Positions 4,849-34,142 of a stretch of 34,880 nucleotides of DNA are shown here, piece after piece. The notes beneath the pieces were generated by a model. The model saw only the letters and a program-made list of their open reading frames with translations, made no database searches and had not been told where the DNA came from. Position numbers and translations under genes: made by a program. Positions within the stretch are counted from its first letter, which is position 1. Each line of letters begins with the position of its first letter. Origin of the DNA: Verrucomicrobiota bacterium (GTDB taxonomy: Bacteria; Verrucomicrobiota; Verrucomicrobiia; Opitutales; Opitutaceae); assembly GCA_016871755.1 (NCBI GenBank), contig VHCJ01000028.1:1-34880 (forward strand), in the 5' to 3' direction.

Positions 4849-4857
4849 GACAAGGGC

Positions 4858-6525: not shown

Positions 6526-6530
6526 GGAAA

Positions 6531-7286
6531 CTAGAAGTAGCCGCCCTTTGCCGTGATCTGGTGGACGGTCTGGCCTTCGGCGACCCAGCCGAAGATCTTT
6601 TTCTCGTTGGCCCGGATTTCCTCGGCACGGACGAGAACCTCGAAGGCGATGTCGCGCGGCACGACGACCACGCCGTCAATGTCACCGAGGATGACGTCAC
6701 CGGGTTTGATCACCACGCCGCGGATGAGGATCGGCACCTGGTAGTGCGTGATGAGGCAGCGGCCGAGGCTGCCGTTGGGGATGCGGTGTTTGTAGAAGAC
6801 CGGGAAATCCTTCTCGAGGATCTGGTGCGTGTCGCGGATGCCGCCGTCGATGAGTGCGCCGCGGATGCCCTTGCCGACGGCGGTGGCGGTCATGACGCCG
6901 CCCCAGAGGGTGGCTTTCTCGTCGTTGCTGGTATCCCAGACGACAAAGGAATCGGCGGCCATGTCGTCGAGCATCTGGGTGCGGAAGGTCATTTCGCCGG
7001 TGATCTTCACGTTGGGCGCGCTCTTCACGGTGAAGGCGAGGCCGGCGACGGATCGTTCCGGACGGAGGGGGATGAGCTGGCCGATGCCCTGGTCGAGCAA
7101 CGCGTGCTCGCGGAGCACGTCGCTGATGGCGCCGGTATAGAGCTGCTCGTAGCGGGCGAGCAGTTCCTTGACGGGAATGGGGAAGGGCTTGGTCGAGATC
7201 GTTTCGCGCGCGGCGATGAGCTTCTCGAGCTTCATCATCTTGGCTTCCTTCTGCAGGAGGCCTTCGTTTTCAGGAGAGAGATTCAT
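6531..7286 (-). CDS. RraA-family protein (putative class II pyruvate aldolase fold)
   Basis: RraA-fold proteins include 4-hydroxy-4-methyl-2-oxoglutarate/4-carboxy-4-hydroxy-2-oxoadipate aldolases as well as the RNase E inhibitor RraA. Visible features in 251 residues are YTGAISDVLRE (50-60), WGGVMTATAVGKGIRGALID (128-147), the metal and substrate motif DGGIRD (147-152) and PGDVILGDIDGVVVVP (195-210). The Arg151 and Asp152 used by aldolase members are present, which favours enzymatic activity. It sits between uxuA and the symporter with gaps of 14 and 5 bases. No KDG kinase or KDPG aldolase is nearby, so direct aldol cleavage of a 2-keto-3-deoxy acid is possible but unproven. An alternative start at 7238 (Met17) has an AGAAGGAAG tract just upstream. 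The N-terminus is therefore uncertain. Confidence 0.88.
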   Translation of the reverse strand: MNLSPENEGLLQKEAKMMKLEKLIAARETISTKPFPIPVKELLARYEQLYTGAISDVLREHALLDQGIGQLIPLRPERSVAGLAFTVKSAPNVKITGEMTFRTQMLDDMAADSFVVWDTSNDEKATLWGGVMTATAVGKGIRGALIDGGIRDTHQILEKDFPVFYKHRIPNGSLGRCLITHYQVPILIRGVVIKPGDVILGDIDGVVVVPRDIAFEVLVRAEEIRANEKKIFGWVAEGQTVHQITAKGGYF

Positions 7287-7300
7287 GGGAGTGCGGGTGG

Positions 7301-8269: not shown

Positions 8270-8284
8270 GGACGGTGCCGCCGG

Positions 8285-9748: not shown

Positions 9749-9779
9749 GGGATGGGCGGCAGGAGTGGGGAGAGAAGGA

Positions 9780-9800
9780 CGGGACAACGTGCGTGTCCCG
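9780..9800 (-). promoter_or_regulatory. Intercistronic hairpin after the TonB receptor gene
   Basis: CGGGACA (9780-9786) and TGTCCCG (9794-9800) form a perfect 7-bp stem with a 7-base loop, inside the 87-base gap between the receptor gene and the GH39-like gene. A pyrimidine-rich TCCTTCTCTCC follows on the minus strand, but there is no true T-run. It may reduce read-through or stabilise the receptor mRNA, so that receptor and enzymes are made in different amounts. This role is inference. Confidence 0.45.
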
Positions 9801-9835
9801 CCCCGGGTGGCCAAAGAATTGCGAGCAGGTTTTAA

Positions 9836-12800: not shown

Positions 12801-13351
12801 CGTTCGGTGTTGAAGCTGTCCATGGGGATGCTGCTCCGGAAGAAGTTCCGCGCCTGGGTCGCCTCGGCGAGGCCGCGCACGCGGGTGCCGGCCGGACCGC
12901 TGCTCAGGCTGGGCTCGCCGGAGACTCCACCCGGGGCGGCTTCCGTGCCCGAGAGGTTGCCGCCAAACCCGGTCGTTTCCATGTTGGTCTGGTAGACGAG
13001 CAGTTCGCGCAGGTTGGTCGAGGCCGTGTCCTCGAGGAACTTGGCTGTGACCACCGAGACGGAGGCGCCGAGGTCGGTGAGCTTGGTGCTCAGGCCGGTG
13101 CCGGCGAGGGACTCGCTGGCCTCGTAGCCGACGTCGGAAGTGCTCTTCACGACGAAAGGGGAAAGCACGAGAACCGGCTCCTTGGGGACGGGGGCGGCGG
13201 AATCGGGGGATGCCGTCTGGGCCGGGAGGGAGACGTTCAGCAGGAGGACCAGCACACCGGCGAGGCACCGGGTGGGGGACATCGCGGCGGGCGGAACGGT
13301 CCGGGCAACCGCCCGGAACGCGGGCACGGGGGGAAGGGCAGGCACATTCAT
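9836..13351 (-). CDS. TonB-dependent receptor, first gene of the glucuronate operon
   Basis: This is an outer-membrane beta-barrel that imports ligands using TonB energy. From the start at 13351 it has 1171 residues. MSPTRCLAGVLVLLLNVSLP, beginning at Met24 (13282), looks like the signal peptide, so 13282 may be the true start. A TonB box VLVLSPFVVKS lies at about 60-70, of the type common in Opitutaceae. The plug domain follows (GTGLSTKLTDLGASVSVVTA, then NLRELLVYQTNM, RVEINRGANALLFGVGSPAG), then a long barrel ending KITLSTKFSF with the terminal Phe expected for barrel assembly. The frame is open to 13801 but would overlap the AraC gene and looks non-coding there. Candidate promoter at 13481-13509. 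Its ligand is probably the oligosaccharide degraded by the downstream enzymes. Confidence 0.94.
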   Translation of the reverse strand: MNVPALPPVPAFRAVARTVPPAAMSPTRCLAGVLVLLLNVSLPAQTASPDSAAPVPKEPVLVLSPFVVKSTSDVGYEASESLAGTGLSTKLTDLGASVSVVTAKFLEDTASTNLRELLVYQTNMETTGFGGNLSGTEAAPGGVSGEPSLSSGPAGTRVRGLAEATQARNFFRSSIPMDSFNTERVEINRGANALLFGVGSPAGIINTSTATADLNRTAGSLDLSADNHGTWRGVFKYNQVLLPNELAVRVAAVHAEEKYQQKFAFSDTDRQYVAAGWDIKALRDRGLLSSTTVRASYENGRIASNRPRTLTPSDRLSSWFSATLPDNLEALGAREKVGYDPRTGPFNVFNRASGNATIGVIENVNRSPTIFFQDVNATAPRDNIPTSAGGQVVFGRPMVSGNVYFPSTGRTGIAVAAYAREMSRVRTDYGLPDGAFYTSENLTDPTIFDFFNNTLVGPNSEGLANLNVIDASVEQLLLDRKAGFEVAFSRQQWDEGLQSLLPQSSPYISIDVNTHMWTGEINPNYGRPFISTAGRATYDEVETETRRAKAFYELDFGDLKARRAGWVLGRHIFSVLAQRETLQTDNRGGGSVHYTPDLWTNGNNQARTAGQSKQIVTWVYLGPSLASASTPAGANLPGLQQNLLDYHTQINGQGVVISRLPAPTAGVATQAQYAPGTQALTVLRENREVTNTASFATLSERTLDSQAFALQSYWLGDHLVSTVGWRKEESSILSANAPFDPAGEGYVRVDSPAYSLDNPALVSQDFERTLFAWSAVAKAPQKWVQRLPVVSALNLYYGESENFSPPNRKTVDTFRNEIAPPNGITKEAGLYLEAFKGRVSLRLNTFETTQTGSFNDRVGGIPAAIMQMHSQVYGMVRGGFIPNGGNGFPVGYVAPPQALLDTFSATIAPGGNLNTTNPGVRDTSDFVSEGHEIELSFRPTRGLSFILNVSKQESVRSNTGAAVRELLFNTPTSTGASLATEWLKPWALQIPINQGALGKEGTNDINILANNFQLLALNVFNVAASADGAPVQELRKWRANFVGNYQFQGERLKGFGVGAGVRWQDKAAIGFPVETFEGDLSPSDGVAELSDLRISDVRNPFYGPTETRVDTWLSYSTKLFNGKVPMKIQLNVRNLFTNNELVPVVINPDGQVAVWSIAEGRKITLSTKFSF

Positions 13352-13480
13352 GGATTTGGTGGGGTGGGGTGAAACAGGCAGCAAAAGTTGGCGGGGGCGA
13401 AGGGGAGGGGGTGACCCGGGCGGGCGGGTTTGACTGCTATTGACCGGCGCAAATCCGGTGGGGCGGGGGAACTGCCGCTT

Positions 13481-13509
13481 ACTATAGGCGTTCGCGGGGG
13501 ATGAGTCTA
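13481..13509 (-). promoter_or_regulatory. Candidate promoter of the glucuronate operon
   Basis: On the minus strand TAGACT (13509-13504) is followed after 17 bases by TATAGT (13486-13481), matching the sigma-70 pattern at 4 of 6 and 5 of 6 positions. It lies 130 bases upstream of the TonB receptor start, leaving a G/C-rich 5' leader. Verrucomicrobial promoter consensus is poorly defined, so this is a candidate only. Confidence 0.4.
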
Positions 13510-13520
13510 TGGTTGCGCCT

Positions 13521-13533
13521 GACAATAGTTGTC
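13521..13533. promoter_or_regulatory. Inverted repeat, candidate operator in the AraC/receptor intergenic region
   Basis: GACAATAGTTGTC is a perfect 5-bp inverted repeat around TAG, located 16 bases before the AraC-type gene and just upstream of the candidate -35 box of the operon. The position suits autoregulation or shared control. Binding by the AraC-type protein is untested, and that family often binds direct repeats instead. Confidence 0.4.
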
Positions 13534-13548
13534 TGAAATTGATTTCCC

Positions 13549-14466
13549 ATGGCCATGACCTTTCACTCCGTCGAGCGGCTGGGCGCGCCCTTCTCCGCGG
13601 TTTCGGAACTCGGGGTCGTGATTCCGGCCGACGGGGAGGTGTCGTTCCTGAACCAGGAAAGAAAGCTCCTGTTCTACTTGCAGGGTAACTGCACCGGAGC
13701 GATCGACGGGGTGGGATCGTTTCCCATCCAGGCGGGCGACGTGCTGGTGGTGCCCTGCCGCTGCCGGCAGCGCTACCGGATGGACCGACCGAGGCAGTCA
13801 CCCCGGCTGCATCTGCTCAAGATTGCCTTCGCGCTGCCGCCGCTGGCGGTGCCGGACGGACGCATGCCCACCCTGCACGTGCAGGGCAATCCGGAGGAGG
13901 ACCTGAGCGTCTTCGCGCGCCATCACTTCCAACAGGTGCGACACCTGCCGGGGGCGCAGACGGCGCCCATGCAGGAAATCCTGCGCGCTATCCGGCGCGA
14001 GGCCGAGGGACACCACCCGGGCATCCGCCACCGGGTGCGGGCGCTGAGCACGAACCTGATGGTGTTGGTGGCGCGAATGGTTCATGAGCGGACCGTGCCC
14101 GTCATGACCGGAGCGGGGGCGCAGGTGCCGATGGTCAACCAGGTGAAGGAGTTTCTGCTGCGGAACCACGCACGCGAACTCTCCCTCGCCGAGATCGCCT
14201 GGCATGTGCGCAAGAGCGAGGAGCATATCGCGCGTGTCTTTCGAAGAGTCACCGGCCAGACGGTCTTCGACTACTTGCGCACCATCCGGCTCGAGAGTGC
14301 GAAGACCTTGCTGATCGATTCCGACAAGACCCTGACCGAGATCGCGCGTCTCACGGGTTTCGGTTCGCTTGCGCTATTTAGTCGAAATTTCACGCACTAT
14401 GTCGGTCGCACCGCTTCGTCCTACCGGCAAGAACGAGCACGATTGGTGCAGTGGCGGCCGGTGTGA
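13549..14466 (+). CDS. AraC-family transcriptional regulator
   Basis: A 305-residue protein with an N-terminal cupin-like sensor (about residues 15-100, including FYLQGNCTGAIDG and IQAGDVLVVPCRCRQRY) and a C-terminal AraC double helix-turn-helix (about 200-295). Visible motifs there are ELSLAEIAWHVRKSEEHIAR (210-229), VFRRVTGQTVFDYLRTIRLE and the family signature LTEIARLTGFGSLALFSRNF. It is divergent from the TonB receptor operon, with 197 bases between the two starts, so it is the likely activator responding to glucuronate or an oligosaccharide. The start at 13549 is chosen, and ATG 13555 is possible. No Shine-Dalgarno sequence is visible. Confidence 0.92.
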   Translation: MAMTFHSVERLGAPFSAVSELGVVIPADGEVSFLNQERKLLFYLQGNCTGAIDGVGSFPIQAGDVLVVPCRCRQRYRMDRPRQSPRLHLLKIAFALPPLAVPDGRMPTLHVQGNPEEDLSVFARHHFQQVRHLPGAQTAPMQEILRAIRREAEGHHPGIRHRVRALSTNLMVLVARMVHERTVPVMTGAGAQVPMVNQVKEFLLRNHARELSLAEIAWHVRKSEEHIARVFRRVTGQTVFDYLRTIRLESAKTLLIDSDKTLTEIARLTGFGSLALFSRNFTHYVGRTASSYRQERARLVQWRPV

Positions 14467-15724: not shown

Positions 15725-17857
15725 ATGATTTTCCTATTTGCCGTCCTGACCCTGACCGCAGGCGATACCAAACTCACGGTGGATCCGGAACGTGCGCGCC
15801 TGAGCCTGGAGCATCGCGGCGCGGTGACGGCTGGTGCGCACCCCGACGGCGGCCTGCTCCTCGGCACGCCGGACCGCCTGCTGCCCGCATCGCTGGTCTC
15901 CCGTGGCTACGATCTGCAAGGCCGGCCGGTATTCGAGGCCGCCACTTCCGAGGGCCGCAAAGCGCGCGTGACCGTCTCACTTACTCCCCAGCAGGCCGAT
16001 TTTTTGGTGCAGCCAGCGGAACCGATGTCCGTGCTGATGCGATTCGCCCCCGCCAGTCCCGGCTACGGGCTCGCCGATCACGCGGTTTCGAAGCGCCCGA
16101 CCTTCGACACCGACATCACCGGCTATAGCAACGACAACTTCCTCGCGGGAGGCGGGATCACCCGGCTGGTCTCCAACTTCGTCATCTATCCCAAAAACCA
16201 ATGGGCCTTTCTGGTCTGGGAGCCGGGCGCGAAGATCGTCCGCAGCACGGAGACCGAGTCCGCGCAGGGCTCGCGACACGTGGAGTCCAACGTGCGATTC
16301 ACCGTGTTTACCGGAACTCCGCGTGAGATCTACCGCGGCTTTCTCGAATCGCGCAACCAGTACGGCTACCCGGTGATGAAGCCCAAGTACGAGTTCTTCG
16401 GCGTCGGGTGGGAGGCGTTCGGCGCGCTGGCATGGGACACCAATCACAAGACCGTCGCTGAAAACATCGACCGTTACCTCGCCGAGGGCTACCCGCTCTC
16501 GTGGATGGTGGTGGGATCGGGCTTCTGGCCCCGCCACGAGGCGCGCTTCCACGAGACCACGAGTTTCGGGATGTACGACCAGAACCTCTACCCCGACCCC
16601 GCCGGCTTCATCGCGCGGTTCAAGGCAAAGGGGCTGAAGTATTTCCAGGGGCTGCGCACGACGTTTGTGGTCGATGGTCCCTTCACTGAGGAGGGGCTGC
16701 GCCAGCGGTTCTTCGTCGAGGAGAACGGGCAGCCGAAGGTGTTCAAGTTCGACTGGCCCAAGACACCCACCTACCTTCTCGATTGGACGAAGCCCGGGGC
16801 CGTCGCCTGGTTCACCGACCTGGCGCGCAAGTGGACCGCCTGGGGCGTGGACGGTTACAAGGAGGACGTTTTCGGTTTCAAAAAGTACGAGTTGCGCGAC
16901 GACAAACTCGATGCCGTGAACATCGCTCTCATGCGCGAAGGGCGCTACGTGATGGGGCGCAACGCCTACCTCGCGTCGCCCGCCGATCTTCACCGGATCA
17001 ACGATTTCAACTACAACCAGCCGCAGGACCGCGGCCCGGTCAATGCGCTCGCGTATGCCTATTCCGGCTTTCCGCTCGTCTACCCGGACATCGTCGGCGG
17101 GACTTTTGGCGAGGGCCATTTCGACCTCAAGGTGACGTCGCGCATGCGGACCTACATGATGCGCAACGCCATGTGGGCGAGCCTGCATCCGTCCATGGGC
17201 ATGGGCCAGGCGCCGTGGACTTTCGGCGACAAGAAACTGGAGACGGTGATGCTCGCCGCCGCCCGCCTGCACGATCGACTGCAACCGTTCTTCCATAGCC
17301 AGGCGGTGAAGTTCTTTTCGGACGGCTACCCATGGCCGATGACTCCTCTTCCGGTGGCGTTCCCCGACGATCCCTCCGTGCATGGTCGCGAGAACGACCG
17401 GGTGCGAGGTTATCAGTGGATGATCGGGGACTCTCTCCTGGCCGCGCCTCTCTACGGCAACGACTACGAGACCGCCACCGCCCGTGGTATTTACCTGCCC
17501 GCGGGCTCTTGGATCGAGTATGACTCCGGCCTCCGGCACGAAGGGCCGAAGCTGCTGCGGGACTATCCGATTCCTCCCGAGATGACGCCGCTGTTTGCCG
17601 GCGGCACGGGTATTGTCGTGGAGAAGAAGGACGGAGGGCTGGTCGCGCGCGTTTACCCGGTGTCCCCGCGGGCCGACTCGACCTTTGTCCATCCGGACGG
17701 GCAGTCCACTTCAGTGATCAGCGTCGATGTGGCGGACTGGAGCAAGGTCGCCGTCCAAACGACCGGCGGCAAACTCGTCCCTGGCCAGTGGGAGCGTCAT
17801 GCTTACGAATTCACGATTCGCGCCGGAGAAAACTACGCACTCCGCTCAAGGCATTAA
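15725..17857 (+). CDS. GH31 family glycoside hydrolase
   Basis: GH31 enzymes are retaining alpha-glycosidases (alpha-glucosidase, alpha-xylosidase, alpha-galactosidase and others). In 710 residues there is an N-terminal beta-sandwich (to about 215), then a TIM barrel with YEFFGVGWEAFGALAW, SWMVVGSGFWPRHEARFHET, the nucleophile motif WGVDGYKEDVFGF (373-385, Asp381), NDFNYNQPQDRGP (426-438) with a candidate acid Asp435, and PLVYPDIVGGTFGEGHF. A beta-sandwich C-terminal part follows. The N-terminus MIFLFAVLTLTAGDT resembles a short signal peptide. The frame is open back to a TTG at 15617, which would add basic residues, so the start is uncertain. It is convergent with lacI and overlaps its 3' end by 12 bases. 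Substrate unknown, but a LacI regulator and GH43 neighbour suggest a plant-type heteroglycan. Confidence 0.88.
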   Translation: MIFLFAVLTLTAGDTKLTVDPERARLSLEHRGAVTAGAHPDGGLLLGTPDRLLPASLVSRGYDLQGRPVFEAATSEGRKARVTVSLTPQQADFLVQPAEPMSVLMRFAPASPGYGLADHAVSKRPTFDTDITGYSNDNFLAGGGITRLVSNFVIYPKNQWAFLVWEPGAKIVRSTETESAQGSRHVESNVRFTVFTGTPREIYRGFLESRNQYGYPVMKPKYEFFGVGWEAFGALAWDTNHKTVAENIDRYLAEGYPLSWMVVGSGFWPRHEARFHETTSFGMYDQNLYPDPAGFIARFKAKGLKYFQGLRTTFVVDGPFTEEGLRQRFFVEENGQPKVFKFDWPKTPTYLLDWTKPGAVAWFTDLARKWTAWGVDGYKEDVFGFKKYELRDDKLDAVNIALMREGRYVMGRNAYLASPADLHRINDFNYNQPQDRGPVNALAYAYSGFPLVYPDIVGGTFGEGHFDLKVTSRMRTYMMRNAMWASLHPSMGMGQAPWTFGDKKLETVMLAAARLHDRLQPFFHSQAVKFFSDGYPWPMTPLPVAFPDDPSVHGRENDRVRGYQWMIGDSLLAAPLYGNDYETATARGIYLPAGSWIEYDSGLRHEGPKLLRDYPIPPEMTPLFAGGTGIVVEKKDGGLVARVYPVSPRADSTFVHPDGQSTSVISVDVADWSKVAVQTTGGKLVPGQWERHAYEFTIRAGENYALRSRH

Positions 17858-18919
17858 GGACAGGCGGCCCCTCTGAGGGCCATTCGTGCTAGCCAGCGCG
17901 TCGGATGAGTGCACCGCTGGTGCCGCCGCTTCCACCCAACGCCCGGGAAACAGCAGCATGCGCGGCAAGGGAGGCACGCCGGTTTCGTTGCCATTGAGCT
18001 GGCTGACGACGAGATCGACGGCGTTCGCGGCGATCATGTCGTAGGATAGATCGATTCCGCCGATCTCCGGCGCGGTCGGAGTCCAGTGCATCGTAACGAT
18101 CGGCCGCTCGGGCCCAGTTGCCAGGTCCATGGTCCGCAGCTGTTCGACGATCGCCTGGGAACTCACCACGATGGCATCGGGCCGGCACCGCTTGAACCTC
18201 CGCGCAACCTCGCGACGGTCTGCCGGCAGTCCGATCCACAACCACTCGGCGGCCGCGGGGCGTTGAGGATGAAACACCGCAAACGCCGCCTCCCACGCCC
18301 GCCGCGCCCGCTCGTTCACCTCCGCTTCGAGGATGGCCATCGGTCGCCGATGCCCGGCCGCGGCAAGTTTTTCGAGCGCCAGGAGCATCGCGAGAAAATG
18401 GTGGTGTCCGGCGTGATGGAGTTCGGGAGTCCACCGCGCGCTGCCGATCACCGCGGGGGCAAAACGATCCCACTCGAGATCCAGCGTCACCTCGGACTCG
18501 TGCATGACGGGGGACAGGAGCACTCCAACGATCCCGCGCGACTTCATCACTTGGGACAAGCGCTGGTCCGTCATGCCGCGCTCGGCGGTCCAGAACTGCT
18601 CCAAACCGTAACCCAACGCCTCGGCTCGCGCCTTGGCCCCCAGGTAGACGCGCTGGAGAAACGGATCCGCCGCCGCCTCGGCCTTCGGCGTATGCACCCA
18701 CACAAAGGCAATGCGCTCGCCTTTCCCGACCGGGCGGGAACTGCGGATGTGGGACATCAGCGAGGAAAAACGCGGATTCGGCCGGTAGCCCAAGGTGGCG
18801 GCGACTTCCTGTACTCGCCTCCGGGTCTCCGGGTGGATCCGCGGATCATTGCGCAGCGCATACGAGACCGTGGCCAGGCTGCAGTCGGCGGCGCGGGCAA
18901 TTTGTTTCAAGGTGATCAC
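17846..18919 (-). CDS. LacI-family transcriptional regulator
   Basis: A 357-residue repressor-type protein starting at GTG (18919). The N-terminal LacI helix-turn-helix and hinge are clear (ITLKQIARAADCSLATVSYA at 2-21, then NDPRIHPETRRRVQEVAATL and GYRPNP). A periplasmic-binding-protein-like sensor domain follows, with weak family motifs (GIVGVLLSP, RRPMAILE, PDAIVVSSQAIVEQL). It sits between the GH31 gene (convergent, 12-bp overlap of the 3' ends) and the GH43 gene (divergent), so it probably controls both. Both targets have the duplicated leader with AACGGTTTCAAT, a plausible half-operator. The ligand is unknown. Confidence 0.92.
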   Translation of the reverse strand: MITLKQIARAADCSLATVSYALRNDPRIHPETRRRVQEVAATLGYRPNPRFSSLMSHIRSSRPVGKGERIAFVWVHTPKAEAAADPFLQRVYLGAKARAEALGYGLEQFWTAERGMTDQRLSQVMKSRGIVGVLLSPVMHESEVTLDLEWDRFAPAVIGSARWTPELHHAGHHHFLAMLLALEKLAAAGHRRPMAILEAEVNERARRAWEAAFAVFHPQRPAAAEWLWIGLPADRREVARRFKRCRPDAIVVSSQAIVEQLRTMDLATGPERPIVTMHWTPTAPEIGGIDLSYDMIAANAVDLVVSQLNGNETGVPPLPRMLLFPGRWVEAAAPAVHSSDALASTNGPQRGRLSLMP

Positions 18920-24016: not shown

Positions 24017-26878
24017 ATGACCCTGAATCCCATTCGAATGCTAAGGGCGCTGCTCGCGGCGTCGGTGCTCAGCTCGGCTTCCGCCCAACCGATTGCCAAC
24101 GACCGCTACACCCTTGAACCCACGGCCGACGGCGCCGTGCAGATCACGGCCAAGGCGGCCGGCACCTGGACGTTCCGCGGCGACTTCACCGTACTCGTCG
24201 CCAAGGCGGATCCGAAACCGGCAATGCGGCCGGCAAACATCCCCCGAACCCTGCACAACATCGCCACGTGGCAGACGGCCGCTCCGCGCGCCGGGACCGA
24301 TTTGAAGCAGACGAAACGATCCGACGCGCAAGTGGGCGACGGTTTCGACGACCGCATCCTCGATGGCAAGACCGACCTGCGGACGGCCGATCTCTTCGCG
24401 GCCGCACCGGTCACCCACGTGAAGGCAACGGGCGTTCAGCACCAGGGCGACGCCCTTGAGTTCACTCTCGCCCCGCAGGATGCGTTTGCCCTGACCGCCC
24501 GCCTCACCCTGCCGCCCGGCGACGCCGAGCCCGTGCTCACGTTCACGCTCACACCCCGAACTGACGCGTGGTTCTCCGTCGGATACACCGGCGCGCCCGC
24601 CTATCCGCTCGAGACGCTCGCCGAGGTGTGGCAGCCTTTCATCTGGCAGGGAAAACGTTTCCCGACCCAGTCGATCCTCACGTCAGCCTACCAGTGCTCG
24701 CTGCCCGCGACCTTCGTGCGCAAGGGCGACGTCACCCTCGGCGTGGTGGTCGACGCCGGGGAGTTCCCTTTCTCCCCGTTGCCGCTGTTCGAAAACAGCC
24801 GCTTCGGCGTGGCGCTGCGCAACCCGGTTGGCGAGGCTCAGCCGATGGTTTTCGCGCCGATGCTCGGCGGCACGGAGTCGAAACGCACGCGCGGCCAGCC
24901 CTTCACGTTCAAACTCCGCCTCTTCGCCGGCACCGGCGACACCACCCAGGCCTTTGAGGACGTCGCGCGCCGGCTCTACGGCTTTCGCGACTATCGCCGC
25001 AACGCCATCAGCTCGCTCAATGAGACGCTCGACAATATGATCGACTACGGGATGAGCCACTACAGCTGGTTCATCGACGAGCTGAAGGGCTGCTCCTACT
25101 CGACCGACGTCCCCGGCGCGGTGAAGAACGTCAGCTCGCTCAACCCGCTCAACCTCGCCCTCATCGCCGACGATGAGGAGATCTTCAATAAACGCGCGTA
25201 CCCAATCATGGAGTACATGCTCTCGCGCGAGAAATTCCTCTTCAGCCTCGACCCCAAGCAGAAGGGCCAGAGCCCCTCGCGTCTCCTCCTCGGGCCCAGC
25301 GCCCCTGTGAGCGAGCTCGCCACGCTCTACGGCATCACTCATGGCGCCTCACCCGTGCTGGGGCATCTGGCCAAACAGATGCTCGGACGCGACCGCATCC
25401 TCAATCTCGACGATGTCACCGAAGGCGGCAGCTGGCAGAACCAGCTGAGCGTGGCCCTCGTCACGGGCGACGCCAGTCTGCTGGCCGCCGCCCGTCGCGG
25501 TGCCGACGCCTATCTGGCGCAGCGCGTTGACCAGCCGCCCACCGGGTTCGACGACGGTGGCATGTTGTTCTTGATCGGATTCGCGCCCAAGTGGATCGAC
25601 CTCTTCCGACTCTACGAGGCGACCGGCGAATCCCGCTACCTTGCTGCCGCCCGCCAGGGCGCCCGCCAGTACACTCAGTACACCTGGATGGCGCCGCGCA
25701 TTCCCGACGAGGAAGTGACGGTCAATCCCGGTGGGCAGGCGCCGGTCTATTGGTATCTCAAGCGCTTCCCGCCGATGCGCGCCCCGGAGGAGCGCGTGCC
25801 GGCCTGGCGCGTCTCCGAGATGGGCCTCACCCCGGAATCCTCCGGCACGATGTCGGGCCACCGCGCCATCTTCATGGCGAACTACGCCCCATGGATGTTG
25901 CGCATCGCGGCGCTCACCGGCGACCAAATGCTGCACGACGTCGCACGTTCCGCCATCGTCGGTCGCTATCGGAATTTCCCCGGCTACCACATGAACACCG
26001 CGCGCACCACGATCTACGAGCGCGCCGACTACCCGCTGCGCGACCACAAGGAGCTCAGCGTGAATTCATTCCACTACAATCACATCTGGCCCCACATGAG
26101 CATTCTCGTCGATTTTCTCGTCACGGATGCCTTTGCGCGTTCCGGCGGAAAGATCGACTTCCCCGCGCACTTCATCGAGGGCTACGCGTACCTGCAGAGC
26201 AAATTCTACGGTGACCGACCCGGGAAGTTCTACGACCGCGATGACGCCGTGCTTTGGCTGCCGCGCCGGCTCATCCAGAGCGGCTCGGTGGAAATCAACA
26301 CGCTCGTGGCCCGCGGCCGCAGCGGACTCTACCTCGCGTTCACCAATCAGTCGCCGCAGCCCGTCACCACCGAAATCACCCTCAGCGCCAAGGTGCTCCC
26401 GCAGCTCTCTGCGCGGACATATCGCACCCGCGTGTTGGCCGGTGGCGCGGATGCGTCTGAGCTGCGCGACGGTCGCCTGACTGTCACCGTTCCGCCAATG
26501 GGTCTGACCGCGATCGAAGTTGAGGGCCTTACCGTCACCCCGAAATTTCAGGACCGCCTCGTCGGCGCCCGTGCCACGGATGCGTGGCGCCGGGACTACC
26601 TCGAGCTGCCGTTCGGCGGCACCCGCGCGATGATCCTCAACTTCGGCCCCGCCGCTACCACGGCGTACGTCTACCTGCAGGCCGACGAGAGCAAGTTCAA
26701 GGCAGTCACCCTCAACTACACCCTCGCCGGCCGCCGGGTGTCGCTAACCGACGCGACGTTTCCGTTCGAGTTCACCGTGCCAGTTCCCGCCGGCGCGGAC
26801 ACCTTCGAATTCGAGGTGGGGGGCGTGACGCCTTCCGGGGACAAACAAGCTTCCGGCCCCGCCGTTTTGCAGCGATGA
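24017..26878 (+). CDS. Large secreted protein of unknown family, probably acting on carbohydrate
   Basis: A 953-residue protein with a signal peptide (MTLNPIRMLRALLAASVLSS, cleavage near ASA-Q). Residues about 25-310 look beta-rich. The middle part, about 330-780, is alpha-helical with repeated aromatic and helix-capping motifs (YGMSHYSWFIDELKGCSYST, VSELATLYGITHGASPVLGH, GTMSGHRAIFMANYAPWMLR, HYNHIWPHMSILVDF), which resembles an (alpha/alpha)6 toroid. The end is beta-rich again. This order is seen in several polysaccharide lyases and hydrolases, but I cannot assign a family or catalytic residues. It lies between a TonB receptor and an MFS hexuronate-type transporter, so periplasmic processing of an imported uronic-acid glycan is a reasonable inference. 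A 251-base gap with the REP-like hairpin precedes it. Confidence 0.6.
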   Translation: MTLNPIRMLRALLAASVLSSASAQPIANDRYTLEPTADGAVQITAKAAGTWTFRGDFTVLVAKADPKPAMRPANIPRTLHNIATWQTAAPRAGTDLKQTKRSDAQVGDGFDDRILDGKTDLRTADLFAAAPVTHVKATGVQHQGDALEFTLAPQDAFALTARLTLPPGDAEPVLTFTLTPRTDAWFSVGYTGAPAYPLETLAEVWQPFIWQGKRFPTQSILTSAYQCSLPATFVRKGDVTLGVVVDAGEFPFSPLPLFENSRFGVALRNPVGEAQPMVFAPMLGGTESKRTRGQPFTFKLRLFAGTGDTTQAFEDVARRLYGFRDYRRNAISSLNETLDNMIDYGMSHYSWFIDELKGCSYSTDVPGAVKNVSSLNPLNLALIADDEEIFNKRAYPIMEYMLSREKFLFSLDPKQKGQSPSRLLLGPSAPVSELATLYGITHGASPVLGHLAKQMLGRDRILNLDDVTEGGSWQNQLSVALVTGDASLLAAARRGADAYLAQRVDQPPTGFDDGGMLFLIGFAPKWIDLFRLYEATGESRYLAAARQGARQYTQYTWMAPRIPDEEVTVNPGGQAPVYWYLKRFPPMRAPEERVPAWRVSEMGLTPESSGTMSGHRAIFMANYAPWMLRIAALTGDQMLHDVARSAIVGRYRNFPGYHMNTARTTIYERADYPLRDHKELSVNSFHYNHIWPHMSILVDFLVTDAFARSGGKIDFPAHFIEGYAYLQSKFYGDRPGKFYDRDDAVLWLPRRLIQSGSVEINTLVARGRSGLYLAFTNQSPQPVTTEITLSAKVLPQLSARTYRTRVLAGGADASELRDGRLTVTVPPMGLTAIEVEGLTVTPKFQDRLVGARATDAWRRDYLELPFGGTRAMILNFGPAATTAYVYLQADESKFKAVTLNYTLAGRRVSLTDATFPFEFTVPVPAGADTFEFEVGGVTPSGDKQASGPAVLQR

Positions 26879-26997: not shown

Positions 26998-28389
26998 ATG
27001 CCCCGCCTCCCTCATCTTCGCTGGTGGATCGCGACGCTCCTCGTGGGCGCCGCCGTGCTCAACTATGTGGATCGCCAGACCTTGTCTGCGCTCGCTCCGA
27101 CCATCCAGACTGACCTCAAGATGGACGACCGCGCGTACGCCAATGTCGTCAATCTCTTCCTCGTCGCGTACACGATCGCCTACCTGTTCTCCGGCCGGAT
27201 CGCCGATCTCATGGGCACGCGCGTAAGCATGGTGCTTTTTGTCGTCTGGTGGTCGGCGGCCAATATGGTCACCGCGGCCGCGCAGGGGGTGCAGTCATTG
27301 GGCGTCTATCGTTTTCTGCTCGGTTTGGGCGAAGCCGGCGTCTGGCCCGCGGCATCGAAAGCAGTCTCGGAGTGGTTTCCGGCGCGGGAACGCGCCCTGG
27401 CCATCGGCCTCTACACGATGGGAGCGACGCTTGGCGCTACGCTCGCACCCTATATCGTGATTCCGCTGGCCACCCACGCCTGGGGCCAGACCCTGCCTGG
27501 CGTCGCCGAGTTTCTCGGCCAGGGCGCGGGTTGGCGCATCGCCTTCATCCTCACCGGCGCCGCCGGCCTCGTTTGGCTCATACCGTGGCTCTGGATGTAT
27601 CGCTCGCCCAAGGACAGCAAACTCATCACCAGTGGCGAACGCGAGATGCTGGAAAAATCCGCGGCGGCCGAGAGCCCGGCCGGTTCCAGCGAAAAGCCGT
27701 GGACGTGGAGGCAAGTTTTCACCTTTCGCGGCACCTGGCTGCTCCTGGTGGGGCGTCTCATCACCGACCCTGTGTGGTACTTCTATCAGTTCTGGTTCCC
27801 CAAGTACCTCAGCGCCGATCGGCATCTCTCGCAGGATCAATTGAAGATCACCTGGATCGTCTACGCCGCCGCCGGCGTCGGCAGCCTGCTCGGCGGATGG
27901 CTCTCTGGGCAATTGATCAAGCGCGGCACCGCGCCCGCTGCCAGCCGCCTGTGGGTGATGCTCGGCTGCGCCGCCATCATGCCGCTGTCGCCGTTTATCG
28001 CGCAGGCCGCCGGCCTCAATCTGGCCATCGCTCTCGCGGTCTGCACCGTCATCGCCGCGCTGGCGTGGTTGATCAACCTCAGTTCCATCGTCGTCGATAT
28101 CGTGCCCAAGCACTCCCTCGGCACGGTCTTCAGCGTCGTCGCCACCGGCAGCACGATCGGCGGTATCATCATGAACCTGATTGTCGCCACCATGGTCTCC
28201 GGTCCCTCGACCAAGGCAGCCGGCTTCCTGGATCAGGCCATTAAATCCGTCGCCAGCGGCCTGCTCGAACTGGTGCAGGGCCAGGGCTACGCCCAGTGGT
28301 TCTGGATCATGGCCGCGCTCCACCCGATCGCGTGGCTGATGCTCTACTTCTGCGGGGTGCACCGTAAAACCACCGTGGCGCCCGCCTGA
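26998..28389 (+). CDS. MFS transporter, ExuT-like hexuronate permease family
   Basis: An inner-membrane major-facilitator protein of the anion:cation symporter family, which includes the hexuronate transporter ExuT. The 463 residues contain about 12 hydrophobic segments. The family-typical N-terminal NYVDRQTLSALAPTIQTDL (22-40) is followed by the RIADLMGTR loop, LLGLGEAGVWPAASKAVSEW, GWRIAFILTGAAGLVWLIPW, DPVWYFYQFWFPKYL and GSLLGGWLSGQLIKRG. The likely cargo is glucuronate, galacturonate or a related acid sugar, symported with protons. Together with the SSS transporter of the other operon, the window has two candidate uronate importers. It is located between the unknown secreted protein and the DUF5107-TPR gene. 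Confidence 0.9.
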   Translation: MPRLPHLRWWIATLLVGAAVLNYVDRQTLSALAPTIQTDLKMDDRAYANVVNLFLVAYTIAYLFSGRIADLMGTRVSMVLFVVWWSAANMVTAAAQGVQSLGVYRFLLGLGEAGVWPAASKAVSEWFPARERALAIGLYTMGATLGATLAPYIVIPLATHAWGQTLPGVAEFLGQGAGWRIAFILTGAAGLVWLIPWLWMYRSPKDSKLITSGEREMLEKSAAAESPAGSSEKPWTWRQVFTFRGTWLLLVGRLITDPVWYFYQFWFPKYLSADRHLSQDQLKITWIVYAAAGVGSLLGGWLSGQLIKRGTAPAASRLWVMLGCAAIMPLSPFIAQAAGLNLAIALAVCTVIAALAWLINLSSIVVDIVPKHSLGTVFSVVATGSTIGGIIMNLIVATMVSGPSTKAAGFLDQAIKSVASGLLELVQGQGYAQWFWIMAALHPIAWLMLYFCGVHRKTTVAPA

Positions 28390-28457
28390 CCACGGTTCTG
28401 CAGCACCCTCCCCGGATCAAGCCTGCGCACGAAAGAAGCGTCCACCCTTCGACCCTC

Positions 28458-31400
28458 ATGGCCGCCGCAGTCACCCTCACCCGCGAGTCCGTCACGCTGC
28501 CGACCTACCTGCCGGCCGCGCCCGACCGCAATCCGATGTTCCTTGAGTCCCGCGTCTACCAGGGATCCAGCGGACGGGTCTATCCGCTCCGATTCTACGA
28601 TCGCATCGCCGAACAGCCCGTTCCGTACGATTGGGACGCCGTTTACCTCGAGAACGAGTTCCTGCGCGTGATGATTCTTCCCCAACTGGGCGGCCGCATC
28701 CACCGGATGCTCGACAAGACCAACCACTACGACGCGATCTACTTTCAGCCCGTCATCAAGCCGGCTTTGGTCGGACTCGCCGGTCCCTGGGCCAGCGGGG
28801 GCATCGAGTTCAACTGGCCGCAGCATCACCGTCCGTCGACCTTCATGCCCGCCGACGTCTGCGTCGATTCGCATCCCGATGGCGCCATTACGGTCTGGCT
28901 AGGGGAACACGACCCGATGGCGCGCATGAAGGGCATGCACGGAGTCTGCCTCCACCCCGGCCGCGCCGTGGTTGAGCTGAAGGTGCGCATCTACAACCGC
29001 ACCGATGATGTGCAGACATTCCTCTGGTGGGCCAATGCCGCCACCCGCGTCCACGAACATTACCAGAGTTTCTTCCCACCCGACGCCACCTTGGTCGCCG
29101 ACCACGCCAAGCGCGCCATGAGCACGTATCCGCTCTGCTCGGGCCGATACTACGGAGTCGAGTACGCCGCTCGCGCCCGAAACGGGGTTCCGGTCGCCGA
29201 ACGCCCCCGCCAATACCAGCCGTCCGGCGGCTACCCGGCAAACGATCTGAGCTGGTATGCCAACATCCCTGTGCCCACGTCCTACATGGCCATGGACTCC
29301 CGCGAGGATTTCTGCGGCGGCTACGACCACCGCGCCCAAGCCGGTCTCGTCCACCTCGCCAACCACCACATTGCCCCCGGCAAAAAGCAATGGACATGGG
29401 GCAACCATGAGTTCGGCTATGCTTGGGACCGCAACCTCACCGACGCCGACGAACACGGCGAACACCGACCCTACATCGAGCTCATGGCGGGGGTCTTCAC
29501 CGACAACCAGCCCGACTTTTCCTTTCTCCAGCCCGGCGAAACCAGAACGTGGAGCCACCATTGGTATCCGATCCAGCAGATTGGCCCCGCCCAGCACGCC
29601 AACCTCCACGCCGCGGTCAGCCTGGCCGTCACCGACCACTCCGCCCGCCTAGGCGTCGCGTTCACTGCCACCCAACCCGCCGCCACCGTCACGCTCCGCC
29701 GGGGGCAACGGATCCTCGCGCACGTCTGCCGCGATCTCTCCCCGGCCGCGCCCCTGGTCGAAACCGTGGCGCTTCCGCGCGGTGCAACCTTGCATCAACT
29801 CTGCCTCGAAGCCAGAGCTGCCGACGGCACGGTCCTCATCCGCCACCAGCCACGTCCCGGAGCGAGTCGCAAGGCCGCGGACCTCGCCACCGCCAGCGAA
29901 CCACCGCTGCCCGAAGCGGTCGGCGGCGCCGACGAACTGTTCCTCATCGGCCTGCACCTCGAGCAATACCGCCACGCCACGCGCCCCCCGGAGGCCTATT
30001 GGCAGGAGGCTCTCCGCCGCGACGACGGCGACTCCCGTTGCCATCTCGCGCTCGGTCGCTGGCACCTTCGCCGAGGGGAGTTTGGCCCCGCCGAATCACA
30101 CCTGCGCGCGAGCCTCGCCCGGCTCACCCGTCGCAATCCCAACCCTGCCGACGGCGAGGCCTTTTATCAACTCGGCCGCTGCCTTGTGCTTCAGGCTGGC
30201 GGCGCAACGACCGCCGAAACTCGGCAGGCGAAGCTCTCGGATGCCTATGCGGCGTTCTACAAGGCCACCTGGAACCACGCGTGGCAGGCGGCCGGTTTCC
30301 ACGCCCTCGCTGAGCTCGACTGTCGCCGTCTCGACTGGACGGCCGCGCTCGACCACCTCGAACGCGCCCTGCGGGTCAATACGGACAACCTTCGCGCCCG
30401 CAACCTCCGCGCCCTTGCCCTCCGTCGCCTGGGGCGTGAGGCCGAAGCCGCCGAGACGATTCGCGGCACGCTCGCCCTCGACCCGCTCGATCATTGGGGC
30501 CGGCTCCTCGCCAACCAACCCTTCAGCGGCGACACCCAGGTCCGGCTCGACCTTGCCCTCGACTTCGCCCGCGCCGGCTTCTTCGACGAGGCGGAAAGGC
30601 TGCTCGCAGCCGCCACTCCCGAACCGCTTTCCGGTACCGCTCCACTTGTCGCGTACTACCGCGCCTGGCTTTCCCAACTGGGGGGTGAAAAGCCCGACGC
30701 CATTCGCGCCCACCTTCGCGCCGGCGCGCGCACTCCCGGCGACTACTGCTTCCCGGCCCGCCTCGAGGAACAGGCCATCCTCCGCCACGCTCTGGCCGTC
30801 AATCCCCGCGATTCCCGCGCTCACGCCGCCCTCGGTCACTGGCTCTACGACCGTCGCCGCCACCGCGAGGCCATCACTCACTGGAAAAGCGCCGTTCGAC
30901 TCGCACCCCGCGACGCCGTCGTCTGGCGCTGCCTCGGCCTCGGCTACATCAACATCCTCGGGAAACCCGCCGCCGCCCGACGCGCGTATGCGGCCGCCCG
31001 CCGCGCTGCGCCCCGCGACGCTCGCCTCCTCTACGAGGCGGATCAGCTCGCCAAGCGTCTCGGCATCTCCTCGGCGCTCCGCCGGCGCGAACTCCTGCGC
31101 CACCCTGCGCTCGTCGCCGCCCGCGACGACCTTTCCCTCGAACTCTGCGCCCTTCACAATCAGCTCGGTCAACCTGCCCTGGCCCTGCCGATCATTTCCA
31201 CGCGTCGCTTTCAACCATGGGAGGGTGGCGAAGGCCAGGCCCTCGGGCAACATACGCGCACTCGCCTCCTACTGGGCCGCGCAGCCCTCGCCGACGGCGA
31301 TGCCGCCACGGCCCGGGCCGAATTTTCCCTCGCCCTCACCGCGCCGGAACACCTCGGCGAGGCCCGCCACCTCCTCGCCAACCAGAGCGAGATCCACTTC

Positions 31401-31838
31401 TGGCTGGGCGAAGCCTGTGCCGCCTCCGGCGACCACCCCGCGGCCCGGACCCACTGGCACTCCGCCGCCAGTTTTCGGGGCGATTTTCAGGCAATGAGCG
31501 TGCGCGATTTCTCCGAGTTGACCTACTACACCGCGCTCGCCCAACGCCGACTTGGTCAAACCGCCCGGGCCGAACGACTGCTTCACTCGCTGCTGGCTCA
31601 CGCTCGCCGCCTGGCGGCGGCGCCCGCGACCATCGACTACTTCGCCACGTCGCTGCCGACCATGCTCCTCTTCTCCGACGACCTACCGCGGCGCCAGCGT
31701 ACTACCGCGCTCTTTCTCGAAGCCCAGGCTCGTTTCGGCCTTGGCGAGCGCCCCGTCGCCCGACGTCTCCTCCGTCAAGTCCTCACCCGCGATCCCGGCC
31801 ACGCTCCCGCCGCCGATTTCCCCTCCGCCGAGCATTAA
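28458..31838 (+). CDS. DUF5107 domain protein with C-terminal TPR repeats
   Basis: A 1126-residue protein without a signal peptide, so probably cytoplasmic. The N-terminal DUF5107 region (about 25-370) shows NEFLRVMILPQLGGRIHRML (67-86), PWASGGIEFNWPQHH (110-124), TFLWWANAATRVHEHYQSFF and YDHRAQAGLVHLANHHIAPG. The GGRI element and the aromatic-rich beta pattern resemble galactose-mutarotase-like sandwich folds. From about residue 480 to 1115 there are many helical TPR-type units (for example CHLALGRWHLRRGEFGPAES, HLERALRVNTDNLRARNLRA). The biochemical function of DUF5107 is not known to me. Relatives occur in glycan-use loci. It is followed by the FAD oxidoreductase after 18 bases and is probably co-transcribed with the MFS gene. 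Confidence 0.85.
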   Translation: MAAAVTLTRESVTLPTYLPAAPDRNPMFLESRVYQGSSGRVYPLRFYDRIAEQPVPYDWDAVYLENEFLRVMILPQLGGRIHRMLDKTNHYDAIYFQPVIKPALVGLAGPWASGGIEFNWPQHHRPSTFMPADVCVDSHPDGAITVWLGEHDPMARMKGMHGVCLHPGRAVVELKVRIYNRTDDVQTFLWWANAATRVHEHYQSFFPPDATLVADHAKRAMSTYPLCSGRYYGVEYAARARNGVPVAERPRQYQPSGGYPANDLSWYANIPVPTSYMAMDSREDFCGGYDHRAQAGLVHLANHHIAPGKKQWTWGNHEFGYAWDRNLTDADEHGEHRPYIELMAGVFTDNQPDFSFLQPGETRTWSHHWYPIQQIGPAQHANLHAAVSLAVTDHSARLGVAFTATQPAATVTLRRGQRILAHVCRDLSPAAPLVETVALPRGATLHQLCLEARAADGTVLIRHQPRPGASRKAADLATASEPPLPEAVGGADELFLIGLHLEQYRHATRPPEAYWQEALRRDDGDSRCHLALGRWHLRRGEFGPAESHLRASLARLTRRNPNPADGEAFYQLGRCLVLQAGGATTAETRQAKLSDAYAAFYKATWNHAWQAAGFHALAELDCRRLDWTAALDHLERALRVNTDNLRARNLRALALRRLGREAEAAETIRGTLALDPLDHWGRLLANQPFSGDTQVRLDLALDFARAGFFDEAERLLAAATPEPLSGTAPLVAYYRAWLSQLGGEKPDAIRAHLRAGARTPGDYCFPARLEEQAILRHALAVNPRDSRAHAALGHWLYDRRRHREAITHWKSAVRLAPRDAVVWRCLGLGYINILGKPAAARRAYAAARRAAPRDARLLYEADQLAKRLGISSALRRRELLRHPALVAARDDLSLELCALHNQLGQPALALPIISTRRFQPWEGGEGQALGQHTRTRLLLGRAALADGDAATARAEFSLALTAPEHLGEARHLLANQSEIHFWLGEACAASGDHPAARTHWHSAASFRGDFQAMSVRDFSELTYYTALAQRRLGQTARAERLLHSLLAHARRLAAAPATIDYFATSLPTMLLFSDDLPRRQRTTALFLEAQARFGLGERPVARRLLRQVLTRDPGHAPAADFPSAEH

Positions 31839-31856
31839 TCTTTCCTTTATTCCGCC

Positions 31857-34142
31857 GTGCACCTCGCTCCTCCTTCCTCCTCCCGTGAACTGCGCTCCGT
31901 CCGCCACGACGCCGATTTGGTAATCGTCGGCGGTGGCCTCGGCGGCACGTGCTGCGCGCTCACGGCGGCGCGCGCCGGCCTCAAGGTCGTGCTCGTGCAG
32001 GACCGGCCCGTGCTGGGCGGCAACGCTTCCAGCGAGGTGCGCCTGTGGATCCTGGGCGCCACTTCCCACATGGGGAACAACAACCGCTGGGCGCGCGAGG
32101 GCGGCGTGATCGACGAATTGCTGGTCGAAAACATGTACCGCAACCCTGAGGGTAACCCGCTCTTCGTCGACGCGCTGCTGCTCGAGATGGTCACGGCGGA
32201 GAAGAACATCACGCTGCTGCTCAACACCGCCGTCCACGACGTCACGAAGCGCGACCCGGACACCATCGCGAGCGTGCGCGCATTCTGTTCGCAAAACTCC
32301 ACGGCCTACGAACTGCACGCCCCGCTCTTCTGCGACGCTTCGGGCGACGGCCTCGTGGGTTTCATGGCGGGCGCCGCTTTCCGCATGGGTGCGGAGTCGC
32401 GCGAAGAGTTCGGCGAGGGTTTTGCGCCCTCCAAAGAGTACGGCGAACTCCTCGGCCACTCTCTGTATTTCTATTCCAAGGACACCGGCCGGCCCGTGAC
32501 CTTCACCCCGCCGAGCTTCGCCCTGACCGACATCACCAAGATCCCGCGCTGGCGGCAGTTCAAGGCGGGCGAGTTCGGCTGCAAGCTCTGGTGGCTCGAA
32601 TACGGCGGGCGCCTCGACACCGTGCACGACACCGAGGGGATCAAGTGGGAACTTTGGAAGGTCGCTTATGGCGTTTGGAATCACATCAAGAACAGCGGCC
32701 AGTTCCCCGAGGCCGCCAACCTCACGCTGGAGTGGATCGGCCACATTCCGGGCAAGCGCGAGAGCCGCCGCTTCGAAGGCGACTACATTCTGCGCCAGCA
32801 GGACATCGTCGAGCAGCGCGCACATCCCGACGCCGTGGCGTTCGGCGGCTGGTCGATCGACCTCCACCCGGGTGACGGCGTATTTTCGGAGAAACCCGGC
32901 TGCAATCAGTGGCACTCCAAGGGCGTTTACCAGATTCCGTACCGCTGTCTCTACAGCCGCAATATCACCAATCTCTTCCTCGCCGGTCGCGTCATCAGCG
33001 CCTCGCATGTCGCCTTCGCGTCCAGCCGCGTCATGGCCACGTGTGCGCACGCGGGCCAGGCTGTCGGCCTCGCCGCCGCGCTTTGCCGTCGCGACACGCT
33101 CCTGCCGCGCGCGCTCACGGCGCCTGCGCCCCTCGCCGAACTGCAGCGCGCCCTCCTGCGCACCGGCCAGCACATCCCCGGTTTCTCCCTGGCCGGCGAC
33201 TCCGCCGATCTCGCCCAGCGCGCCACGCTCTCCGCCTCCAGCGAATACCAGCTCGCCACGCTCCCGGCCGACGGCCCCGCCGTCTCCCTGGCCGACGGCT
33301 GGGCGATGATGCTCCCCGTCACCGCCGGCACCAAGCTCGACCTCGCGGTCTTTGCCGATGTCGCCGCCGCCGCCGAGCTGCGGGTCGAGCTGCGCCAAAG
33401 CAGCCGGTCCGACAACCACACGCCCGACGTCACGCTCGAAACCAAGACGCTCCCCCTCGCCGCCGGCGACGGCCAGGAGGTCGCGGTGTCCTTCACCCAC
33501 ACGTTTGCCGACACCCGCTACGCCTTTGTTTGTTTCTTTGGTGGACCCGCCATCCGCCTCCGCACGAGCGAGCAGCGGCTCACGGGCGTGCTTTCGCTCT
33601 GCCACATGGTGAACCTCGCCGTGGCGAAATCGGCGGTGCAGACGCCGCCGCCCGATATCGGCGTCGATACCTTTGAGTTCTGGCAACCGCAGCGCCGCCC
33701 CGCCGGCCGCAACCTTGCCCTGCGCCTCGCGCGCCCGCTCGCGGCCTTCGGCGCCGCCAACGTCGTCAACGGCGTCGCGCGCCCCACCAACGCGCCCAAC
33801 GCCTGGCTCGCCTCCCTCGCCGACCCCGCGCCTGCACTCACCCTGCGTTGGGCCGAGCCGCAGACGATTGCGCGGATCGAGCTCATGTTCGATCCAGACT
33901 TCGATCACCCCATGGAGTCGGTCCTCATGGGGCACCCCGAGCGCCGCATGCCGTTTTGCGTGGAGCGTTACCGCGTGCTTGACGAAAGCGGCCACGTGCT
34001 CGCCACCTGCACGGAGAATCATCAGGCCCGCAACGTCATCGTGCTCGCCTCGCCCGTCACGACCCGCGCCCTCCGGCTCGAACTCGCCGCCCCCGCCGCT
34101 CACGTCCCCGCCGCCCTGTTCGAAGTGCGGTGCTACGCGTAG
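31857..34142 (+). CDS. FAD-dependent oxidoreductase with C-terminal discoidin-like region
   Basis: A 761-residue cytoplasmic flavoprotein of the FAD_oxidored (PF12831) type, starting at GTG 31857. The dinucleotide fold DLVIVGGGLGGTCCALTAAR (20-39) is followed by PVLGGNASSEVRLWILGATS (51-70), DASGDGLVGFMAGAAFRMG and the C-terminal flavin motif NLFLAGRVISASHVAFASSR. The last 120 residues or so (LALRLARPLAAFGAANVVNG, LRWAEPQTIARIELMFDPDF, TTRALRLELAAPAAHVPAAL) look like a discoidin/galactose-binding domain, unusual on a protein with no export signal. It probably oxidises a sugar or sugar acid, but the substrate is unknown. It is the last intact gene of the plus-strand locus, 18 bases after the DUF5107 gene. 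Confidence 0.87.
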   Translation: MHLAPPSSSRELRSVRHDADLVIVGGGLGGTCCALTAARAGLKVVLVQDRPVLGGNASSEVRLWILGATSHMGNNNRWAREGGVIDELLVENMYRNPEGNPLFVDALLLEMVTAEKNITLLLNTAVHDVTKRDPDTIASVRAFCSQNSTAYELHAPLFCDASGDGLVGFMAGAAFRMGAESREEFGEGFAPSKEYGELLGHSLYFYSKDTGRPVTFTPPSFALTDITKIPRWRQFKAGEFGCKLWWLEYGGRLDTVHDTEGIKWELWKVAYGVWNHIKNSGQFPEAANLTLEWIGHIPGKRESRRFEGDYILRQQDIVEQRAHPDAVAFGGWSIDLHPGDGVFSEKPGCNQWHSKGVYQIPYRCLYSRNITNLFLAGRVISASHVAFASSRVMATCAHAGQAVGLAAALCRRDTLLPRALTAPAPLAELQRALLRTGQHIPGFSLAGDSADLAQRATLSASSEYQLATLPADGPAVSLADGWAMMLPVTAGTKLDLAVFADVAAAAELRVELRQSSRSDNHTPDVTLETKTLPLAAGDGQEVAVSFTHTFADTRYAFVCFFGGPAIRLRTSEQRLTGVLSLCHMVNLAVAKSAVQTPPPDIGVDTFEFWQPQRRPAGRNLALRLARPLAAFGAANVVNGVARPTNAPNAWLASLADPAPALTLRWAEPQTIARIELMFDPDFDHPMESVLMGHPERRMPFCVERYRVLDESGHVLATCTENHQARNVIVLASPVTTRALRLELAAPAAHVPAALFEVRCYA

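Follow-up and report, generated by a model that had tools for sequence, protein, structure and literature searches.

The closest described counterpart of the protein examined here is BDI_1685 of Parabacteroides distasonis (Protein Data Bank, PDB, entry 5cd6, named 'TPR-domain containing protein'), which likewise joins a mutarotase fold to tetratricopeptide repeats (TPR) in one chain; no paper was found under the name BDI_1685 in the open-access literature. Further points of comparison are the galactose mutarotases (GalM, PF01263), the major facilitator superfamily (MFS) D-galactonate transporters (TIGR00893) and a Bacteroides pectin locus whose BT4151 acts, according to a review, in the removal of galactan from pectin fragments (PMC8002723). 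These systems were compared with DUF5107-TPR, a protein encoded between an MFS permease and a flavoprotein, FADox, at positions 26998–34142 of contig VHCJ01000028.1 from a bacterium of the Opitutaceae (assembly GCA_016871755.1). The whole contig of 34,880 nucleotides is called the window below; it belongs to a draft assembly of 3.67 Mb in 144 contigs.

The three genes do form a real operon, which combines two units and does not amount to one pathway. Synteny shows unit A to comprise the protein Sec953, an importer (MFS here, SSF elsewhere) and FADox. Synteny together with the phylogenetic profile defines unit B, DUF5107-TPR, often accompanied by AraC, XylE- or CUT2-type importers and a BT4151-like enzyme of glycoside hydrolase (GH) family GH2 or a GH35 enzyme. 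We give an even chance to the explanation that this segment forms the 3′ end of a TonB-linked glycan-use operon in an Opitutaceae bacterium, assembled from these separately conserved units, with DUF5107-TPR recruited into it. DUF5107-TPR itself would most likely work in the cytoplasm as a mutarotase-like enzyme, serving the use of galactose or galactan. The genes of the two units lie as follows.

24017..26878, + strand: Sec953, 953 aa, with an export-like N-terminus and no Pfam family; the conserved partner of FADox
26998..28389, + strand: MFS permease, 463 aa (MFS_1, 9.6e-48), TIGR00893-like but under the cut-off; a conserved neighbour of FADox
28458..31838, + strand: DUF5107-TPR protein, 1126 aa (DUF5107, 1.7e-44, residues 40–372, with TPR families behind)
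29478..29480, + strand: codon of Glu341 in DUF5107-TPR, position computed from the residue number
31857..34142, + strand: FADox, PF12831 flavoprotein, 761 aa, GTG start (FAD_oxidored, 3e-97, residues 20–433)

The ORF coordinates agree exactly with the preliminary description of this segment, which had reported three genes on a shared strand with gaps of 68 and 18 bases. A consensus scan of 26998–34142 detected no promoter-like sites and, on the + strand, no terminator-like sites. FADox is a member of PF12831 (327 bits, cut-off 27, profile positions 1–416 of 416; Pfam), and DUF5107-TPR belongs to the DUF5107 family PF17128 (152.5 bits, cut-off 24.4), which Pfam lists as a domain of unknown function. 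Inspection by eye and a crude hydropathy rule gave no sign of an export-like N-terminus in either protein, in line with the earlier statement that both lack a signal peptide. The permease had been called ExuT-like; its best NCBIfam match, over nearly the full length, is TIGR00893, but with 204.8 bits, where the cut-off is 395, it is not a certified member of the galactonate transporter family.

Relatives of FADox were searched in 57 genomes and then in 288 genomes of the phylum. In the former, Sec953 occurred in 7/7 FADox genomes and in 1/50 others (p = 3e-8; as the genomes are akin, this and the other p-values given here overstate independence). One genome, G022, had been left out of the FADox count because its match ended at a contig end (56% over 117 residues); with this partial match included, the figure was 7/8. 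Three relatives show such arrangements in the absence of DUF5107: GH43-Sec953-MFS-FADox in that order in L097, with the MFS relative upstream of FADox, GH43-Sec953-FADox in L095 and Sec953-like-MFS-FADox in L099. The phylum search yielded 15 distant loci, namely its top 19 places minus the window, G034 (already covered) and two G066 fragments. At nine of these 15, FADox directly adjoins an SSF importer that is a relative of the SSF encoded in the window, and at a tenth one gene lies between them; at another of the 15, L229, an MFS permease 72% identical to that of the window stands directly upstream of FADox. Since SSF or MFS importers adjoin FADox across both relatives and distant loci, importer and FADox are a conserved pair. 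Sec953 relatives were found at the distant loci L239 and L240. The earlier view that permease, FADox and secreted protein belong together is thus borne out by synteny.

DUF5107 was not seen in this arrangement. It was absent from the matches of at least 60 bits, the threshold for neighbours at FADox loci, at all 23 other FADox loci of relatives and phylum, the 15 distant ones among them; at least three of the 23 end near FADox at a contig edge. Neighbours of the distant FADox genes include GH43, GH2, GH29, GH95, sulfatases and esterases, which indicates glycan use and no single substrate. Glycoside 3-oxidases suggested by analogy a 3-keto-glycoside route for FADox, which found no support, no recognised partner of such a route appearing among 25 of the 61 families formed by 62 FADox neighbours. 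A 1356-aa ORF in L230 (9099–13169) was also considered as an SSF-FADox fusion and discarded, the SSF match lying in another frame.

The C-terminal tail of FADox, about 290 residues long, is conserved. It had been described as discoidin-like, a resemblance that was recovered faintly among relatives (F5_F8_type_C in 1/18 tails, 6e-4; DUF7402 in 7/18, best 1e-3; Pfam, E ≤ 0.1) and not in the tail of the window's own protein, which had no Pfam match at that threshold. A comparison of the tail with the PDB returned nothing at E ≤ 1, and a predicted structure of FADox, built from two sequences alone, reached a predicted local distance difference test score (pLDDT) of 37.2. For Sec953, none of the 12 homologues scanned exceeded the cut-off of a Pfam family; four of the 12 showed weak similarity to GH127 (best 0.004), and the PDB comparison gave weak matches to six-hairpin glycosidases (best E 0.027). 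Sec953 may represent an as yet unassigned glycosidase family. A second TonB receptor and Sec953, 83 and 87% identical to those of the window and cut by the contig ends, lie on a 4.2-kb contig of the same assembly (L105, G000:C90); this copy is either a paralogue or a strain variant.

Full-length DUF5107-TPR was present in 19/57 genomes (20 loci), presence being defined as a full-length domain match, by which G003 (a 39-position match just over the cut-off) and G005 counted as absent. In the set of named genomes, a relative was confirmed in 588 stretches; the phyla of the best 80 of these 588 presumably include Verrucomicrobiota, Acidobacteriota, Planctomycetota, Pseudomonadota, Actinomycetota, Bacillota, Bacteroidota, Chloroflexota and Armatimonadota. 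The best 80 confirmed stretches supplied the named loci and are biased to close relatives. Neighbours within 8 kb were counted at 99 loci besides the window (one contig appears twice, as L039 and as L146, and some loci are short), with 60 bits to single references as the threshold. AraC was found at 48 loci, a sugar porter at 34, GH2 at 27, GH35 at 13 and any tested importer at 51, a count in which periplasmic binding proteins, confusable with LacI-type regulators, were taken as importer parts. The window's MFS family was found at 0/99. An example of a sugar-porter locus is L137, from Edaphobacter lichenicola. Three porter representatives exceeded the cut-off of the sugar-porter family TIGR00879, with XylE as the best equivalog under its own cut-off, and two ABC (ATP-binding cassette) ATPases near DUF5107 resemble AraG/XylG (CUT2-type). 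XylE-type sugar porters and AraG/XylG-type ABC systems are monosaccharide importers.

The glycosidases of unit B also follow DUF5107-TPR across genomes. GH2 of the L040 type (E ≤ 1e-60) was detected in 14/19 DUF5107 genomes and in 0/38 others (p = 1.5e-9), all 14 GH2 genomes thus having DUF5107-TPR, and GH35 (E ≤ 1e-40) in 13/19 compared with 2/38 (p = 9e-7); a further search used E ≤ 1e-80. Within the family, among genomes of at least 4 Mb, the GH2-DUF5107 association gave p = 6e-5. After split GH35 pieces had been merged (19 rows to 17), 6/22 GH2 and 4/17 GH35 genes lay no more than 8 kb from DUF5107, where 0.12 and 0.08 would be expected if genes were placed at random. A GH2 representative matched NF049890 (exo-beta-1,4-galactosidase, BT4151) over its length with 824.5 bits, and the BT4151 family was the sole NCBIfam match of the GH2 neighbour in L123. 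The window differs from the pectin locus in that the source genome shows no such GH2 and in having GH43, GH31 and Sec953 nearby. A scan of 96 of the 164 unclassified same-strand neighbours, in locus order up to L171, found GH53, GH59 and GH30_2 twice each; GH53, GH31, GH78, a PcRGLX-like protein, an apiosidase and GH42 are examples from single DUF5107 loci.

By the crude hydropathy rule, with uncurated starts, the N-terminus is strongly hydrophobic in 4/101 DUF5107 ORFs and 18/28 GH2 ORFs, counts that would fit exported GH2 enzymes, an importer and a cytoplasmic DUF5107-TPR acting on the imported sugar. Two divergent DUF5107-TPR proteins, L038:7456–10752 and L025:6722–10438, have export-like hydrophobic N-termini, that of L025 lying behind a misplaced start and being missed by the rule; their sequences suggest that they are extracytoplasmic members of the family.

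An AlphaFold2 model of DUF5107-TPR based on 67 sequences (pLDDT 91.8) consists of a galactose-mutarotase fold (residues ~1–375), further strands (~385–463) and a TPR superhelix (~490–1120). Up to residue ~375, the model matched Bacillus subtilis 3mwx with a VIA Z of 25.2, 4bze with 24.8 and Lactococcus lactis GalM with ~21. The matches to entries named galactose mutarotase (VIA Z 20.4–25.2) place this part in the galactose-mutarotase-like beta super-sandwich. The longest structural match was BDI_1685 (Z 37.4 over 550 residues, 22% identity), which is shorter, with 575 residues in the structure. GalM differs in turn by the absence of the TPR superhelix of ~630 residues.

Conservation is strongest in the mutarotase-fold domain, where 108/320 columns (residues 61–380) are at least 95% conserved compared with 22/226 in residues 901–1126; the TPR part has a conserved stretch at about residues 916–926. 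The invariant residues of the mutarotase-fold domain include E65, E117, E341, D349, D353 and Trp residues, and E341 is found in 67/67 sequences. E341 precedes the Asn of an NQPxF...PGE segment by nine residues, and in 14 GalM sequences a Glu has the same spacing in a like segment; we take this GalM Glu to be the catalytic base, E304 of L. lactis GalM. The correspondence is a lead rather than proof, because a profile comparison aligned the NQPxF...PGE segment alone, with a probability of 1.8%.

In the mechanism that we propose, Sec953, GH43 and the TonB receptor would deliver a glycan fragment, which the permease would import and FADox would oxidise in the cytoplasm. In unit B, GH2 enzymes, many of them exported, would release a beta-sugar, and the importer would bring in the monosaccharide, on which DUF5107-TPR may act intracellularly as a mutarotase-like enzyme with E341 perhaps as the base; its TPR superhelix would close over the pocket or dock a partner enzyme. 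We infer its status as an enzyme, a free aldose such as galactose as substrate, and the role of the TPR part in enclosing the site or binding a partner. In the source genome, where the unit B gene sits between importer and FADox, DUF5107-TPR may work on whatever sugar the MFS permease imports, and this link is what survives of the earlier idea. Its substrate here may differ from that elsewhere, because GH2 and GH35 were not found in the source genome. In the DUF5107 tree, the window protein falls among Opitutaceae copies, nearest to that of L032, where a GH2 gene lies alongside. The history that asks for least is a move of a DUF5107 gene from the Opitutaceae family into the interval between MFS and FADox; the alternative that DUF5107 was lost elsewhere is less simple, as it needs more events.

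Several results weigh against this assignment. Pfam PF01263 does not match DUF5107-TPR (E ≤ 0.01), the alignment to the GalM profile spans 17 columns (E 0.027) and starts behind the Glu, and the GalM histidines have no counterpart evident by eye at the sequence-matched positions of DUF5107-TPR. We assume H170 and H96 to be the general-acid histidines of GalM. No importer tested was found at 48/99 DUF5107 loci and neither GH2 nor GH35 at 63/99, and the porter of the queried sugar-porter (SP) type lay near DUF5107 in 1/9 cases in the 57 genomes. The GH2 score remains below the NCBI equivalog cut-off (1500), and neither the GH2 nor the GH35 queried was detected in the draft source genome at the thresholds applied; the kinship of the genomes counts on the same side. 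True aldose 1-epimerases (PF01263) make up 3/96 of the DUF5107 neighbours scanned, and a plain mutarotase would therefore sometimes be redundant. These three neighbours have also been taken as arguing against simple redundancy with GalM. For unit A, nothing examined points to the substrate of FADox.

The preliminary description had proposed DUF5107-TPR and FADox as consecutive steps of a possible cytoplasmic, acidic-sugar pathway fed by the permease, which we regard as the least probable of the explanations weighed. The genes are indeed co-directional and closely spaced, and L120 has both about 2.3 kb apart, which also tells against separate units; there, however, FADox lies divergently on the opposite strand with its own AraC gene. 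The DUF5107 protein of L120 is not the nearest tree relative of the window protein, so the FADox-DUF5107 neighbourhood may have arisen twice. L120 is the sole FADox case among the 99 DUF5107 loci, and DUF5107 is near FADox at 0/23 loci, some on short contigs, so that the co-occurrence survey called for earlier came close to finding no conserved co-occurrence. Across genomes, DUF5107 was present in 4/7 FADox genomes (p = 0.16), or 5/8 with the partial G022 match (p = 0.07). The idea of an acidic substrate rests on the glucuronate isomerase UxaC of the window's other operon, a match to which was listed at 0/15 distant FADox loci and found at 1/99 DUF5107 loci; sugar-acid chemistry is unsupported.

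A cytoplasmic sugar sensor or scaffold, in which the mutarotase fold binds sugar non-enzymatically and the TPR arm docks a regulator or an enzyme, is unlikely, though it would account for the unseen GalM histidines and for the AraC gene within 8 kb at 48/99 loci. TPR arrays usually bind partners. Nevertheless, 51/99 loci lack such an AraC gene, and the densest conservation (E341, H123, H216, D349–D353) is found in the mutarotase fold, not in the TPR part. It is distinctly unlikely that DUF5107-TPR is instead a glycoside hydrolase such as a beta-galactosidase, as the pairing of a super-sandwich with a helical domain in several (alpha/alpha) glycosidases might suggest. Its invariant acidic residues E65, E117, E341, D349 and D353, the Trp residues, and the GH2, GH35 and other glycosidases nearby would suit such an enzyme, and like sandwich domains (Z 15.3–16.5) are seen in GH38 and in one chain of a beta-galactosidase; free-standing mutarotases match better (Z about 20–25), and the importers typed are of the monosaccharide type. 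A mutarotase-like enzyme remains our preferred reading of DUF5107-TPR.

Upstream of Sec953, the window encodes the following features of the same glycan-use region.

17846..18919, − strand: LacI-type regulator (Pfam LacI, 3.1e-14); a 76% identical homologue adjoins the GH43-Sec953-FADox cluster of L095
19092..20387, + strand: GH43-family protein (Pfam GH43, 8.7e-14), same-strand and upstream, syntenic in L095 and L097
20517..23765, + strand: TonB-dependent receptor (TIGR01782, 327.2 bits, cut-off 310)

A divergent minus-strand operon at 2579–13801 encodes a TonB receptor, GH39, an RraA-like protein, SSF, glucuronate isomerase and SDR in that order. In the RraA-like protein (467 aa), the Pfam match is limited to residues 269–424. 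Of the adjacent SusC/SusD pair that marks a Bacteroidetes-type polysaccharide utilisation locus (PUL), TonB receptors are present in the window, and the SusD family was not found among 16 window proteins scanned (Pfam, E ≤ 0.01).

The open-access literature searched likewise gives DUF5107 as of unknown function. The fold, the invariant residues, the GH2 and GH35 neighbours, the monosaccharide-type importers and the phylogenetic profile together provide a testable assignment for a protein of many phyla. We propose only tentatively, and with some doubt, that DUF5107-TPR would represent a new class of cytoplasmic enzyme, its mutarotase-fold active site lying within a TPR superhelix, which serves an as yet unrecognised galactan or galactose step in about nine phyla and is rewired here to a flavoenzyme-importer pair for a different sugar. 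For the flavoenzyme, Sec953 and FADox with the importer are the relevant unit; because the comparison shows this unit to be separate, the three genes should not be treated as one pathway.

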